The translations under genes and the position numbers were made by a program. A stretch of DNA of 64,000 bases, from positions 62,001-126,000 of the forward strand of contig CAJXQU010000001.1 in assembly GCA_913058255.1 (NCBI GenBank), written 5' to 3'. Position 1 is the first letter of the stretch, and every line of letters starts with the position of its first letter. Positions 26,447 to 32,689 of the stretch are shown piece after piece. The notes below the pieces were generated by a model. The model did not search any database and had not been told where the DNA came from. It saw nothing but the letters and a program-made list of their open reading frames with translations. This DNA comes from an uncultured Pseudomonadota bacterium (GTDB lineage: Bacteria > Pseudomonadota > Gammaproteobacteria > CAJXQU01).

Positions 26447-26992
26447 ATGTTACGCATTGACCTAGAAGAATCTGTTTCTCATAGCCACCTTGATCTGAAG
26501 ATCCTTTCTCCTTTTCAACGAATATTGCTCACCACCGATGGTACTGTTACTGAGATTTTAGAAGCACAGTTTTATGAACAGATTGATCTCGTTAAGCTAT
26601 TCCAAGAAACTCGTATCACTGCTATTGATATTCCTTATCTTGAAATAAAGTCTGGTACAGAAGTGTTAGTTCGTAAAATTCTTTTGCGCGGCAAAGACTC
26701 AATCAAAAACTATATTTATGCTGAGTCTATTCTTGTACCAAAGCATTTAGACTCAAGTTTACAAACAGGCCTGCACTCAACAGACAAACCTATTGGTCGT
26801 TTAATGATCGAGTCTAAAACAGAAACATTTCGTGAGATCCTTTCTTGTAAAAAAGAAAATGCTGATGAACTTGCTGAACATTTTGGTCAAAGCCAAACGT
26901 CAATACTTATCTCCAGAACGTATCGGATCCTTTCTGATCACAAGCCTGTTATTTTAATCACCGAAAAATTTCCTGAAACTGCTTTTAGATAA
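26447..26992 (+). CDS. Chorismate lyase-like protein (DUF98)
   Basis: 181 residues of the chorismate pyruvate-lyase/UTRA-fold family, DUF98 branch. The signature SPFQRILLTTDGTVTEILEA (about 21-40) opens the domain, with VLVRKILLRG and YIYAESILVP strands, PIGRLM (about 115) and a closing YRILSDHKPVILITEKFP. It could release 4-hydroxybenzoate from chorismate, as UbiC does for ubiquinone, but the DUF98 branch has been linked to other chorismate-derived products and no ubi gene adjoins. The catalytic glutamate near REILS is plausible, not certain. Confidence 0.7.
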   Translation: MLRIDLEESVSHSHLDLKILSPFQRILLTTDGTVTEILEAQFYEQIDLVKLFQETRITAIDIPYLEIKSGTEVLVRKILLRGKDSIKNYIYAESILVPKHLDSSLQTGLHSTDKPIGRLMIESKTETFREILSCKKENADELAEHFGQSQTSILISRTYRILSDHKPVILITEKFPETAFR

Positions 26993-27002
26993 ACACCGAC
27001 TA

Positions 27003-30000
27003 TTAAGCATTAAGCCCTAACATCCACGTTCGGCTTTTCCAACCTACTCCTTTTCTAGCAGCAACTACCCGTTTAAAAATTTCTTTAATGACCATTTCTA
27101 AGACATCATCTCTTACTTCTTCTCCATATTCGGCAATGCTCTTTAATCGCTGTTTTATTTCTTGAAGCACAGTTTTATTACTCAAACTCAGATCTTCAGC
27201 TGCATATCCTATTTGCAAGATATCTAATATCACACTGTGATAATCATTCATGCGATCATGATTAACTCTGCCCGACCAAAGCTTAGAGCTTTCAATGTCA
27301 TTTTTTATATAATAACCCACTGCTAACCATGGCTCGTGAAAATAATATCCCGAGTCATTCACGCCAACCTTATTAACTTCTAATGCCTGATCAATATTTT
27401 TCTTTGTCCAGTGTAATTGCGCTAAATAAAATAAGCCCCACCCTTGTCCCTTAGAATATTTATTCCAATCTCCACCCCACTTTATTCCCGCATCAATATC
27501 TTTATTTTCACTAAAACTCATCATAGCCGATCCCCACGTTAGAGGATCTTCCTTCAATTGATCGCCAATTGATTTGATCAGTTTTTTATGTTCTTTTTTA
27601 GAACCATGGCTTGTTACAAAATCTTGATATTCAGACATTGCTTGAATACCTACTTCAGATTTACTGTCATAGACTTCTTTCAACCTAGGGAGATTCGCCT
27701 TCCAATCTTTTTGTTCGCTAACAAGCTCGCCCCAAAATGCCCCCACACGTGGCAAACATTTATCATCACCTAATATGTTAGCAAGATGTTTAGCAGCTTC
27801 TGCCCCCCAACCTTCTTTTTTAATACTTTCAAGACATGTATCAAATAACCATCGATTCTCACTTTCACCCAGCGCCAGCATCTGCAAACACGCAAATGCA
27901 TGATCTTTATTTTTAATTTTTGCCGCCAATGCTCCATCGCGCGCGGTTACATATTCATTATCTTGAATATGAACTCTCATTCTTTCCATTAATGTTTGCA
28001 TCGAAGAAATATCATCACGCTCTTTATAAATATCGAACAAAACAAAGTTGGATAATGTCGAGCTTGGCTCTCTATCAGATGCTTGTTGTAAATAAGGTAT
28101 TGCCTCATCATCTCGCCCCAAACTATGCAAGGCATCACCAACATATGAGAATGCATGTGCGCTGTTCGGTTCAAGATTGAGCATTGCTTTACTGTGCGTG
28201 TAATATTCCTCAGACCTATTTTCTGAATCACACCAATCAGCTAACATTCTTAAACCATCATAATAACTTGGCTCTTGCTCGACTAGCTTAGCCATTTCAT
28301 TAATACCACGATCAATGTCACCTTGCTCACGACTAATCCAAGGCAAATGTCCTCTGATCCTTACCGGTGGTATGCCATCCCAACAAGGATGATTAGCTGC
28401 GCTTCGTGCATCATCAAATTCACCTTGTCGAGTCAGTAAAACTATTTTCTGCTCATGGGCATCGATCAACCGTGGACTTAACTTAATCGCTTTATCCAAG
28501 GAATGTAATTTTTCTTTTGGATCCGATTGAAGGCGCGCCAATATACACCAAAGTTTCTCATCTCCTTGTTTAATGGCAAGCATTGTTTGCACTGTTTGTT
28601 CTGGTAAATCATCTTTACCTAGAAAATCAGCCCATCTTTCCAAAGCACCCCAAGCCCAGTCATATTCAGGATCTATTTCGATGGCTCTTGTAACTTCTAC
28701 CAAAGCTTGCTCACGCTCACCCAAATGCCATAACGCATCAGCAAGAAAGCCACGGCAATATGGATCTAGCGGAATTTTAGTCAAAGCAGTTTCCATTATT
28801 TTTTTTGACTTAGAAAAATCTCCACGTACCTCATGAAACTCTGCCAGCTTTCTGATCGCGGCACTCCACGAAGGAGCAATTTCTAACGTTCTTTCTAAAC
28901 AGTTTTTTTCTTTATCCGGCTCATTCATTAGTTGATAAATATAAGCTTGATCGAGCCATAAACGTGGTAATAAAGGAAACCTCTCTGTACCTTCTTGGCT
29001 ATATTTTAATGCTTTATCCAATTGGCCAGCATCAACATATTCACGACTAACCGCTGCCCAGGCGTTCCATAAGTCTGGCCGCTGTTCGACAGCATTTTTT
29101 AATTCTTGCTGTAGCTCTTCAGGCTTTAAAATTGATCCGGCTAGTGTTTGAAAAGACATCAAACCATCTCCCAAAGTTACTTGTGAGATTAACTCCTGAC
29201 GAATAAATTCTAACTGTTCTTTTTTGGTTTCCACTGATGAGCAACAGCCCAGTAATGCTCGCATTGCATAATCATTATCAATATTGAGCTTTAATGCTTC
29301 GCGGTAGGCCTCAATGGCCTTGCTTATATTGCCTTGGTTTTCATTAAGCTCTCCTAGCAAGTTAAAATAGCTAGCATGTGTTGGGTCAAGATTTCTTGCT
29401 ATTTCTAAAGACGCAAACGCTTCATCATATCGCTCTAAATAACCAAGAATTCTTCCAAGTTCACGTTGCGCCCAATCGTCCATTGGATTCATTTCTATCA
29501 ATCGGCGCAAAGCAATTTCTTTTTCTTCTAATGGTGCCTGATCTAACCAATCAACCCATAATCCTTGTAGATCACGATTATGTGGAAATTGTTCTTTTTT
29601 ACTTTCAAGGAAATCAATTGCTGTTTGACGATCTTTCATCTCAGACAATAAACGTGTGTTCATTTTAATTGCCCGAAAGTGCATCGGATCAATAGCTAAA
29701 ACCTGCTTCCAATAATCTAATGCCCTACCTAACTCACCTTCATAATCCGCCAGATCGGCTTGCTCTATTAGCCAGCGTAGCTCAAGGCACTTGCCTTTGG
29801 CTCTTTCTAAGTAACGATGGGCTTTTTCAAACTCACTATGTCGTGCTAAAAAATCTGCTCCATATAAGAGTAAGTCGGTATCATCTGAGCGAAGGCTGAC
29901 TGCGGCCTCTAACGCATCATGCGCTTCCTTATCCTGATCAAGCCATTCATAAGCTCGGCATAAGGATATGGCCGGGAATGCTGATTTATTTCCAAAGCGG

Positions 30001-31973
30001 TTATAGCGCTCTTTCAAAAATTCTATTCCTTCTTCTCCGCGTTTTCGACAACGCAGGGCTTTAAAGTAATTACTAACATAATGCTCTACTTTTTCTTCCA
30101 AACACGCCGTTATTCTGTATAACTCGATAGATTCTTCGTATCGTTTTTGCTCCCAACGAATGTACGCGAGTAAGAATAAAGCTTGGGCATTTTGCGGCTG
30201 CCAGCGAATTAACTTTTGTAGAATCTCTTCAACCGTTTCAAACTCGCGCGCATCATCACTCAACAATTGCGCTCTTTGCATCAACAAAGCAGAATGTTCA
30301 TCATACTCAATACAAGCTTGTTCGATAAAATCTTGCTGTTCTTTTCGCCGCCCAATGTTCCCTAACGACTGTTGTTTGCTCATTAAGTAATTAATATTTC
30401 CCGGATACAAAGCTAATAATTTTTCAGTATTCTCAAGAATATTAACTTCACTATCATCATAAATAGCGATGGACCTGTTTGCTACATGTAATAGGCGATG
30501 CTCAGGCCAGCGTTGCTGCATTTCTTCTATATGAGCAGATGCTGCTTCACGATCATTTTTTTCTAATGCCGCCTTAATCCAAAAGTATCGGTCGTACACT
30601 TCTTTGTCTGGTAGTTCAATCTGATCTAATAAACTGGCTTTTCCTTCCGGTATCAAGACCATTGCACGCGGCCCAGTCCAAGCGTAGAACTCCAATGATT
30701 TTTCTGCAAAAAATTCTGTTGTTGAACGTGTTCCAGGATCACGAACAAGAAAAACACCCCGTGCTTGATCATAACCAATAACCGCTTGAAGATGAGCAGA
30801 GCCGGGCTCTACCGTCGAGAGCGCAAAAGGTATTCCTTTGTCTAATAGCTTAACGGCAACGTCCCACGTTAGGCAAAATTCATAAACGACATAACCATTT
30901 TCTAGCGCCCATTGTCGTTCACTATATTCTGACGTTCCGTCATACCAGATATCTTCTACAACATCTAAATGATCAACTTCGCATCCCCAATATTGAGCAA
31001 TCGAAGTTAATGTTGCCGGGCCACAAGTCATATGATGTTGTCGGACATACTCAACATCAAGACGAACAGATTTTTGTGATTTAGATACTTTAAGCTGTTC
31101 TGCAAGATGCGTATAAAACGCTCCGCCCTCTTCCTCCGCACTACTTATAGCCAGATCAAGATTTTTCATATAATAAGCAATGTCTGAACGGCGGCCCGCG
31201 ATCCACTTTTGTTCAGGCTTATCTTTAAGCGGTGTTAGTTTTTCGTAAAGTTCGAGGCTTTTTAATGCTTCTGGATATTGTTTTAATTCTATTTGTAATT
31301 GCAGACATTGTGCTGCCACACCCGAGCTTTCAATGTGAGTGAGTGCTTCCTTCATCAGATCTAATGCTTCTTGATCACGACCCATCGACTGTAAAAGTTG
31401 CGCATGGTGCTGCACACCTGATCGATACCAAGGTGATTTTTCGAGTACTCGCGTAGTAACTTCTAAAGCATCTTCGTAGCGATCTTGAAACTCATAAAAG
31501 CTGGCTCGCTCTAGCCCAATCCAATCACTGTCGGGATCAATTTTTTGCGCCTGATCAATACATTTCTCAGCATTATCAAAGTCACGATAACGTCCTAGTA
31601 AATAACCTTCAAATGCTAACCATTCAGCTTTTCTTTGCTTACTCGTACTTTCTGGCAACTCACCCGTTTCACGAATAAATCGAAGCGCCCGATATGCCCC
31701 TCGGACAGTTGCTAATGCGCGAGCATAAAAATAGATTGCTTCGCCTGATTCTGGGTGCTCTTTCCATGCTCTATAATGTAACAATGACCCGAGACGATGT
31801 GCCCCTAGATTGTAGGCTAGTCGGCCCGCGAGAATGCGCCCCTTTTCACCACGCCAACCTTTAATGTCACCTAATTCTTCAGTGTGCTCAAAAGCCTTAA
31901 GGTATAGGCCTTTTTTGTATAAATCTTCAACATAGGCTATTTTCTGTTCATCTAAATAAATTTCTTGAGTCAT
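27003..31973 (-). CDS. Giant TPR protein with embedded C39-like cysteine peptidase domain
   Basis: 1656 residues, no signal peptide or membrane helix, so probably cytoplasmic. Residues about 1-300 and 450-1590 are tandem TPR-like helical repeats (for example RALATVRGAYRALRF, LIEMNPMDDWAQRELGRIL, LEIARNLDPTHASYFNLLGE). Between them (about 306-432) is a C39/papain-like domain: QHHMTCGPATLTSIAQYWG with the catalytic cysteine about 318, histidine in AHLQAVIGYD, and aspartate in FLVRDPGT. C39 domains elsewhere cut double-glycine leaders in ABC exporters; no exporter or peptide gene lies next to it. It is divergent from a DUF1287 gene. Confidence 0.85.
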   Translation of the reverse strand: MTQEIYLDEQKIAYVEDLYKKGLYLKAFEHTEELGDIKGWRGEKGRILAGRLAYNLGAHRLGSLLHYRAWKEHPESGEAIYFYARALATVRGAYRALRFIRETGELPESTSKQRKAEWLAFEGYLLGRYRDFDNAEKCIDQAQKIDPDSDWIGLERASFYEFQDRYEDALEVTTRVLEKSPWYRSGVQHHAQLLQSMGRDQEALDLMKEALTHIESSGVAAQCLQLQIELKQYPEALKSLELYEKLTPLKDKPEQKWIAGRRSDIAYYMKNLDLAISSAEEEGGAFYTHLAEQLKVSKSQKSVRLDVEYVRQHHMTCGPATLTSIAQYWGCEVDHLDVVEDIWYDGTSEYSERQWALENGYVVYEFCLTWDVAVKLLDKGIPFALSTVEPGSAHLQAVIGYDQARGVFLVRDPGTRSTTEFFAEKSLEFYAWTGPRAMVLIPEGKASLLDQIELPDKEVYDRYFWIKAALEKNDREAASAHIEEMQQRWPEHRLLHVANRSIAIYDDSEVNILENTEKLLALYPGNINYLMSKQQSLGNIGRRKEQQDFIEQACIEYDEHSALLMQRAQLLSDDAREFETVEEILQKLIRWQPQNAQALFLLAYIRWEQKRYEESIELYRITACLEEKVEHYVSNYFKALRCRKRGEEGIEFLKERYNRFGNKSAFPAISLCRAYEWLDQDKEAHDALEAAVSLRSDDTDLLLYGADFLARHSEFEKAHRYLERAKGKCLELRWLIEQADLADYEGELGRALDYWKQVLAIDPMHFRAIKMNTRLLSEMKDRQTAIDFLESKKEQFPHNRDLQGLWVDWLDQAPLEEKEIALRRLIEMNPMDDWAQRELGRILGYLERYDEAFASLEIARNLDPTHASYFNLLGELNENQGNISKAIEAYREALKLNIDNDYAMRALLGCCSSVETKKEQLEFIRQELISQVTLGDGLMSFQTLAGSILKPEELQQELKNAVEQRPDLWNAWAAVSREYVDAGQLDKALKYSQEGTERFPLLPRLWLDQAYIYQLMNEPDKEKNCLERTLEIAPSWSAAIRKLAEFHEVRGDFSKSKKIMETALTKIPLDPYCRGFLADALWHLGEREQALVEVTRAIEIDPEYDWAWGALERWADFLGKDDLPEQTVQTMLAIKQGDEKLWCILARLQSDPKEKLHSLDKAIKLSPRLIDAHEQKIVLLTRQGEFDDARSAANHPCWDGIPPVRIRGHLPWISREQGDIDRGINEMAKLVEQEPSYYDGLRMLADWCDSENRSEEYYTHSKAMLNLEPNSAHAFSYVGDALHSLGRDDEAIPYLQQASDREPSSTLSNFVLFDIYKERDDISSMQTLMERMRVHIQDNEYVTARDGALAAKIKNKDHAFACLQMLALGESENRWLFDTCLESIKKEGWGAEAAKHLANILGDDKCLPRVGAFWGELVSEQKDWKANLPRLKEVYDSKSEVGIQAMSEYQDFVTSHGSKKEHKKLIKSIGDQLKEDPLTWGSAMMSFSENKDIDAGIKWGGDWNKYSKGQGWGLFYLAQLHWTKKNIDQALEVNKVGVNDSGYYFHEPWLAVGYYIKNDIESSKLWSGRVNHDRMNDYHSVILDILQIGYAAEDLSLSNKTVLQEIKQRLKSIAEYGEEVRDDVLEMVIKEIFKRVVAARKGVGWKSRTWMLGLNA

Positions 31974-32110: not shown

Positions 32111-32689
32111 ATGAAATACCTTCTCCCATTACTGCTGCTAGTCACCACAACAGTATTTGCTGAAAGCTTTAATCAAAAATTATCATTTGCAGCAATAGAG
32201 CGTACTTCGCATACTGTAATTTACAGTGGAGACTATCAAAAAATAGATTATCCCAATGGTGATGTGCCTGCTATGTTTGGAGTTTGTACCGACGTGGTGA
32301 TCCGAGCTTATCGACAACTGGGAATTGATCTACAAAAAGAAGTCCACGAGGATATGAAAGCTCATTTTTCACTATATCCTAAAAACTGGGGGTTAAAACG
32401 TACAGATACCAATATTGATCACCGTCGAGTACCTAACTTACAAACTTTTTTCTCACGTAAAGGGCAGGTTCTTAAAAAGTCTAAAGATCCTAAAGATTAT
32501 AAACCTGGAGATATTGTTACTTGGATATTACCAAATAACATGACCCATATAGGGATCGTTACCCATAAAAATAGTCGTGATAAAACGCGACCCATGATCG
32601 TTCATAATATTGGCTTAGGTCCTAAAGTAAACGACATGCTTTTTGACTACACCATTACTGGCCATTATCGATACAGTGGAAATCATTAA
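32111..32689 (+). CDS. DUF1287 exported protein (NlpC/P60-like)
   Basis: 192 residues with a signal peptide (1-18, cleavage after VFA). The domain keeps the family's GVCTDVVIRAYRQLGIDLQ (about 57-75), with a cysteine in the nucleophile position, DHRRVPNLQTFF and the MTHIGIVTH histidine region (about 146). DUF1287 (E. coli YijF type) has an NlpC/P60-like arrangement, so a periplasmic amidase or peptidase acting on cell-wall peptides is plausible but unproven. One base separates its stop from the next gene, so they form a coupled pair. Confidence 0.8.
   Translation: MKYLLPLLLLVTTTVFAESFNQKLSFAAIERTSHTVIYSGDYQKIDYPNGDVPAMFGVCTDVVIRAYRQLGIDLQKEVHEDMKAHFSLYPKNWGLKRTDTNIDHRRVPNLQTFFSRKGQVLKKSKDPKDYKPGDIVTWILPNNMTHIGIVTHKNSRDKTRPMIVHNIGLGPKVNDMLFDYTITGHYRYSGNH

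Follow-up and report, generated by a model that had tools for sequence, protein, structure and literature searches.

C39 peptidases are best known as parts of peptide exporters, in which they serve as the trimming module. In the stretch of DNA analyzed here, which is 64,000 nucleotides long and is referred to as the window, a C39 domain instead lies inside a long protein built of TPRs. The gene is a single solitary open reading frame (ORF) with an ATG start at positions 27003..31973 of the minus strand and encodes 1656 aa, as judged from the ORF reading and from collinear full-length homologues. An earlier sequence-only reading of the window had described one ORF of TPR-like repeats broken by a C39 domain with Cys, His, and Asp in place and had proposed a substrate other than the leader peptides of exporters.

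Domain Architecture and Predicted Structure

Coordinates, strand, length, Pfam matches, and the structural model all agree with this description of the ORF. TPR models from Pfam flank the C39 domain on both sides, and Peptidase_C39_2 (PF13529) matches residues 305–413 with 46.5 bits (E 7.2e-12; cut-off 24 bits) when the whole protein is scored and with 52.6 bits (E 9.4e-14; cut-off 24) when the excised domain is scored. The score for Peptidase_C70 (AvrRpt2-like, PF12385) is weak: the whole protein stays under the 19-bit cut-off at 17.5 bits, the excised domain passes it at 22.3, and PF13529 scores far higher. The exporter C39 family PF03412 reaches 14.4 bits, which is under its 22-bit cut-off; no transporter domain was found among the Pfam matches of the protein, and an NCBIfam search with it gave no matching equivalog. 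The gene has a G+C content of 40.6% compared with 39.8% for the window and a GC3 of 0.31, and we saw no foreign base composition.

Two overlapping AlphaFold pieces together cover all 1656 residues, one spanning residues 1–1180 (48 sequences; mean pLDDT 92.5, pTM 0.89) and the other residues 480–1656 (46 sequences; pLDDT 90.4, pTM 0.75). In the model, 17 helices precede residue 297, residues 302–442 form a mixed alpha/beta domain, and about 73 helices follow up to the C-terminus. The N-terminal TPR block (residues 9–296, 31086..31949, minus strand) is made up of those 17 helices and is supported by Pfam TPR/ANAPC3 matches, the C39 cysteine peptidase domain (residues 302–445, 30639..31070, minus strand) by PF13529 and by structural matches, and the C-terminal TPR superhelix (residues 457 to about 1600, 27174..30605, minus strand) by the AlphaFold model and the homologue alignment.

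The comparison with the PDB used the whole model, which is dominated by TPRs, and the C39 fold was judged from the matches aligning over about residues 300–447. Residues 306–443 align with the ComA peptidase domain (3k8u) with a Z score of 17.0 and 2.3 Å over 132 of 137 residues at 20% identity, and the domain also matches PCAT1 (9azl; Z 16.4, 2.7 Å) and the C39-like peptidase 3erv (Z 15.7, 2.4 Å). Within 302–442 the topology is that of C39 peptidases: a helix begins at Cys317, His394 belongs to a strand, and Asp412 is found where a strand ends. This places the three residues recognized in the sequence-only reading. In the predicted structure the domain between the TPR stacks has the C39 peptidase fold with Gln, Cys, His, and Asp in order, and not a non-peptidase fold, the outcome by which that reading could have failed. 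The top Foldseek matches (IFT-A, Ski3, Paf1, and OGT) were rejected as a clue to function, being generic TPR matches with poor TM-scores.

A Family of Nearly Constant Length

A search across the class turned up one homologue of 1659 aa, from another family, and a search across the phylum added two; a four-sequence domain alignment scanned against one genome per species then gave 122 relatives, 80 of which were fetched. Of the 80 fetched loci, 68 encode at least 1500 aa in a single frame; these were aligned together with the window protein and two earlier homologues, resulting in a set of 71 proteins; a dereplicated set of 55 was used for column and tail statistics. The TPR-C39-TPR architecture is common to all 71 full-length proteins. 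Their median length is 1661 aa (10th–90th percentile 1647–1731), and in most members the Cys lies near residue 320 and is followed by about 1340 residues. Over residues 150–1320 (1171 positions) the 55 homologues have a mean gap fraction of 0.0013, or about 0.1%, and 28 insert columns. Homologues are 22–34% identical to the window protein. That the length is nearly rigid at this level of identity is unusual among repeat proteins, and it stands out more than any other feature of the family.

Full-length members were identified in six phyla, namely Pseudomonadota, Planctomycetota, Myxococcota, Verrucomicrobiota, Acidobacteriota, and Cyanobacteriota; in Nitrospira and Gemmatimonadota the frames are short or cut. 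Cultured bacteria that carry the gene include Chthoniobacter flavus, a Myxococcus species, and Pseudomonas nitroreducens. The family is sporadic among bacteria, with a prevalence of 19 of 199 in Planctomycetota, 8 of 146 in Myxococcota, and at least 4 of 398 genomes, including the window's own, in Pseudomonadota (about 1%, a lower bound from a single-sequence query). All 10 genomes checked for copy number carry one copy, and one Planctomycetota genome has two matches. No relatives were found on viral contigs or plasmids, the viral scan having used a single protein that detects close relatives only. The family tree appears mostly, not wholly, congruent with the phyla, with 10 changes compared with a minimum of 5 (a quick method, on a tree with long branches). 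Six of the 80 loci (L034, L036, L053, L054, L075, and L080) have frames interrupted other than by a contig end; five of them continue in a second piece, likely the product of sequencing errors or recent breaks (frameshifts or stops), and L075 (532 aa) has no continuation.

Conservation of the Active Site

Across the homologue alignments, conservation is highest in the C39 domain. The expected oxyanion-hole residue Gln312 (31038..31040), which is equivalent to Q15 of PCAT1 (PMC6959990), the expected nucleophile Cys317 (31023..31025), and the expected catalytic base His394 (30792..30794), all on the minus strand, are each present in 55 of 55 dereplicated homologues, and the third catalytic residue, Asp412 (30738..30740, minus strand), is Asp in 53 and Glu in 2. 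All 71 full-length proteins have Gln312, Cys317, His394, and also Arg353; at the position of Asp412, 69 carry Asp and 2 carry Glu. The catalytic set of PCAT1 consists of Q15, C21, H99, and D115 (PMC6959990), and the spacings in the window protein are close to those of PCAT1 (Cys to His 77 vs 78, His to Asp 18 vs 16, and Gln to Cys 5 vs 6).

The loci had been found through patterns containing the Cys or the His, and we checked for the resulting search bias. All 36 loci that match only the His pattern keep the Cys, and among the 20 that match only the Cys pattern the His is kept in all full-length ones. Because loci found without the Cys or without the His pattern keep that residue, the catalytic conservation is not a search artefact, and the conservation of Cys, His, and Asp in orthologues, on which the sequence-only reading depended, holds. 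The dN/dS ratio is 0.05–0.29 across eight close pairs, and purifying selection on the TPR-C39 family is strong.

A Charged TPR Surface and a Basic Tail

The TPRs adjacent to the protease (residues 475–698, 29880..30551, minus strand) form a candidate docking surface marked by the conserved charged residues R475, D506, D574, R620, E630, R656, and D698. Among the 55 homologues, 7 charged columns conserved at 90% or more fall within residues 456–700 and 0 within 701–1656 (Fisher p 1.4e-5), and this clustering suggests that a functional surface adjoins the protease. Because the highly conserved charged TPR residues are clustered next to the protease, it is plausible that the repeats bind the substrate.

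The last 40 residues of family members have an average net charge of +5.8 compared with –0.9 elsewhere and are enriched about twofold in Trp (55 homologues), and this composition defines a C-terminal basic/Trp tail in the window protein (residues 1617–1656, 27006..27125, minus strand). TM-like segments occur within the last 80 residues of 7 of the 55 homologues. These seven (L031, L037, L060, L066, L074, L083, and L085) have clear hydrophobic C-terminal segments where others have a Trp/Arg-rich tail, and the segments are possibly TM helices. The window protein itself has no detectable signal or TM segment, with a maximum 19-residue Kyte–Doolittle average of 0.98. The earlier description of the protein as lacking a signal or membrane helix is thus borne out for the window member, but the word soluble is less secure for it, given the family tails, and may have to be read as peripheral at the membrane. 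Because the window protein's own tail, at +2, is less basic than the family average, the case for a membrane tether is weak here.

Genomic Neighborhood

The gene stands alone, with a DUF1287 gene (32111–32689, plus strand; its product has an N-terminal signal-like segment) divergent upstream and a gene of the Rv2949c-like chorismate pyruvate-lyase family (26447–26992, plus strand; 68% identity in a same-genus genome) convergent downstream. The surrounding region is housekeeping and includes rsgA, coaD, rsmD, ftsY, ftsE, and ftsX (assigned by eye, with Pfam matches for the genes that were scanned), and no CRISPR gene was found among the neighbors in the window. That no exporter lies nearby, as had been noted from the sequence, can be extended to the whole genome: a profile search of the genome found no PF03412 protein, and the TPR-C39 protein is its only PF13529 match.

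No TPR-C39 gene was found in the two genomes of the same genus. One of these (G001) keeps the gene order GGT, DUF1223, PqiA, [865 bp], Rv2949c-like, followed by PEMT, RsgA, and DEAD; the TPR-C39 gene and the adjacent DUF1287 gene are missing from this order, and the gaps hold other genes. Unrelated genes around its Rv2949c-like gene (L107, 8044–8754 and 9388–10811) include one for a UPF0014/FetB-type-like membrane protein, identified by eye. This suggests that the spot around the Rv2949c-like gene has a variable gene content, and the pattern of presence and absence fits either gain or loss of the TPR-C39 gene in the genus. A match to the DUF1287 gene is likewise absent (E 1e-10) from both same-genus genomes, and the two genes may have come or gone together; the DUF1287 gene does not recur beside other TPR-C39 homologues.

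We clustered 931 neighboring ORFs from 84 loci and found no partner gene, only what is mainly synteny among close relatives, a negative result of limited power, as the ORF caller works crudely on high-GC genomes; Pseudomonas members share such synteny around the gene. The 92 nearest neighbors match 127 Pfam families, none of which is present in more than two neighbors, and defense models show no enrichment among them, being scattered and matching at most 2 of the 92.

These results bear on the possibility that the protein is a conditionally activated protease of defense or regulation, analogous to TPR-CHAT (Craspase) or separase, in which a ligand of the TPRs would switch on the cleavage of a second protein. 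The general plan of a TPR array with a cysteine protease is shared, the distribution is sporadic and usually single-copy, and the locus is missing from a syntenic same-genus genome, all of which fit such a role. However, defense-like neighbors are scattered, no sensor or effector is linked to the gene, the best PADLOC match (E 5e-4) is a 16.9-bit partial match over the TPRs, and the tree follows the phyla fairly well, with the Pseudomonas members syntenic. We consider this possibility unlikely.

Leader Docking

The residues that dock the leader helix in PCAT1 are A55 and I59; affinity for the leader drops more than eightfold when they are mutated (PMC6959990). In the TPR-C39 family I59 aligns with Arg353 (30915..30917, minus strand), which all 55 homologues keep as Arg and which occupies the "hydrophobic knot" position of PCAT1 (PMC6959990), and A55 aligns with the variable column 349; this placement comes from a pairwise alignment of the sequences that is weak (E 0.095) rather than from a superposition. 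The block that contains I59 and Arg353 runs from a GT pair to the following G over 14 positions and is gap-free, with equal spacing in both proteins. A hydrophobic leader-docking groove of the PCAT type (A55 and I59) is not matched in the sequence alignment, and a canonical GG-leader helix is unlikely as the substrate because the docking Ile59 of PCAT1 corresponds to a family-invariant Arg.

The protein could nevertheless serve in trans as the double-glycine leader peptidase of an exporter that has no C39 domain; the TPRs would then dock the precursor or the exporter. The C39 fold is very near that of ComA and PCAT1 and the tail hints at the membrane, yet the A55 and I59 positions fall on a variable column and an invariant Arg, PF03412 is absent from the genome, and no exporter or precursor family recurs among the 92 immediate neighbors, which makes this role quite improbable. 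The absence of a C39 exporter from the genome and the invariant Arg353 support the proposal that the substrate is something other than an exporter leader.

Proposed Mechanism

The reading that we favor, and regard as reasonably likely, is a TPR-docked C39-type cysteine endopeptidase that is apposed to the membrane and has a putative trans-encoded substrate. Such a protease is probably aimed at a bound protein rather than being part of a peptide exporter. Taken together, the active site, the charged TPR patch, and the tails suggest a machine at the cytosolic membrane face that docks and cuts a client. It would lie at the cytosolic face of the inner membrane, where the basic/Trp tail, TM-like in some members, would hold it. 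The long TPR superhelix would bind a specific polypeptide partner, with the conserved charged patch adjoining the protease, and a segment of the partner, or of a protein carried by it, would be presented to the narrow C39 cleft and cut by Gln312, Cys317, His394, and Asp412. The substrate would be encoded elsewhere in the genome and would differ from the standard double-glycine leader peptides that C39 ABC exporters process.

Against an endopeptidase of this kind stand the lack of a travelling partner gene, and hence of a clue to the substrate, and the fact that a papain-type Cys-Gln-His-Asp site could equally be that of an amidase, transglutaminase, or deamidase. That the protein is a papain-fold transferase or amidase acting on a TPR-bound protein is nonetheless very doubtful, since the nearest structural matches (ComA and PCAT1) are proteases, although non-proteolytic papain-fold enzymes share the fold and the Cys-His-Asp site and the conserved E352-R353-x-W355 and H394-x-Q396 distinguish the family from the exporter C39 sequence used in the pairwise alignment.

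A further reading is that the family is a C39-based bacterial counterpart of separase and TPR-CHAT. Present in at least six phyla, it would be a TPR machine of fixed length, tethered to the membrane, that senses one partner protein and responds by cutting a dedicated cellular substrate, in a regulatory role unrelated to peptide export; we put this forward tentatively, as an idea with a modest chance of being right.

Comparison with Known Systems

The C39 fold, the TPRs, and a C39 domain followed by TPRs, as in the PA2778 family, are already known. Exporter-free C39 proteins exist within PF13529 and the PA2778 family, some of them with TPRs after the C39 domain, so that the premise of the sequence-only reading that C39 domains normally sit on exporters was too narrow. 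The fixed-length TPR-C39-TPR family is apparently undescribed: the open-licence papers searched for C39 plus TPR contain nothing on a protein of this layout, its spread, or its altered docking site, and a survey of polymorphic toxins (PMC3482391) describes Tox-PL-C39 toxin domains, not the TPR-C39-TPR architecture.

The PA2778 family cysteine peptidases (NF033920) share the order of C39 and then TPRs with the window protein, and positions 4–250 of the 255 in the model align over residues 306–553. However, the score is 63.6 bits compared with a cut-off of 150, and the window protein adds an N-terminal TPR block of ~300 aa and a C-terminal array of ~1200 aa and has no signal peptide. TPR-CHAT / Csx29 (Craspase, type III-E CRISPR) likewise joins a TPR array to a cysteine protease and is comparable in its way of working only; CHAT is caspase-like (PMC9729208), whereas the catalytic domain of the window protein is C39 papain-like and its neighbors are housekeeping genes with no type III-E locus. 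O-GlcNAc transferase (1w3b) also combines a long TPR superhelix with a catalytic domain, and it matches the TPR part with Z 18.7 (rmsd 14.7 Å over 349), a generic TPR match; its catalytic domain is unrelated.

The closest relatives of the catalytic domain remain the C39 domains of ComA and PCAT1 (3k8u; 9azl and 6v9z), which it resembles in fold and in the order and spacing of Gln, Cys, His, and Asp. Unlike them, it has no attached ABC transporter, lies between TPR arrays, falls short of the PF03412 cut-off, and carries, by the alignment above, an invariant Arg in place of the leader-docking Ile59 of PCAT1. A length that hardly changes over six phyla suggests a defined machine that serves a defined client, and if the TPR-C39 protein proves active, it represents a further class of bacterial protease, one directed by its scaffold.
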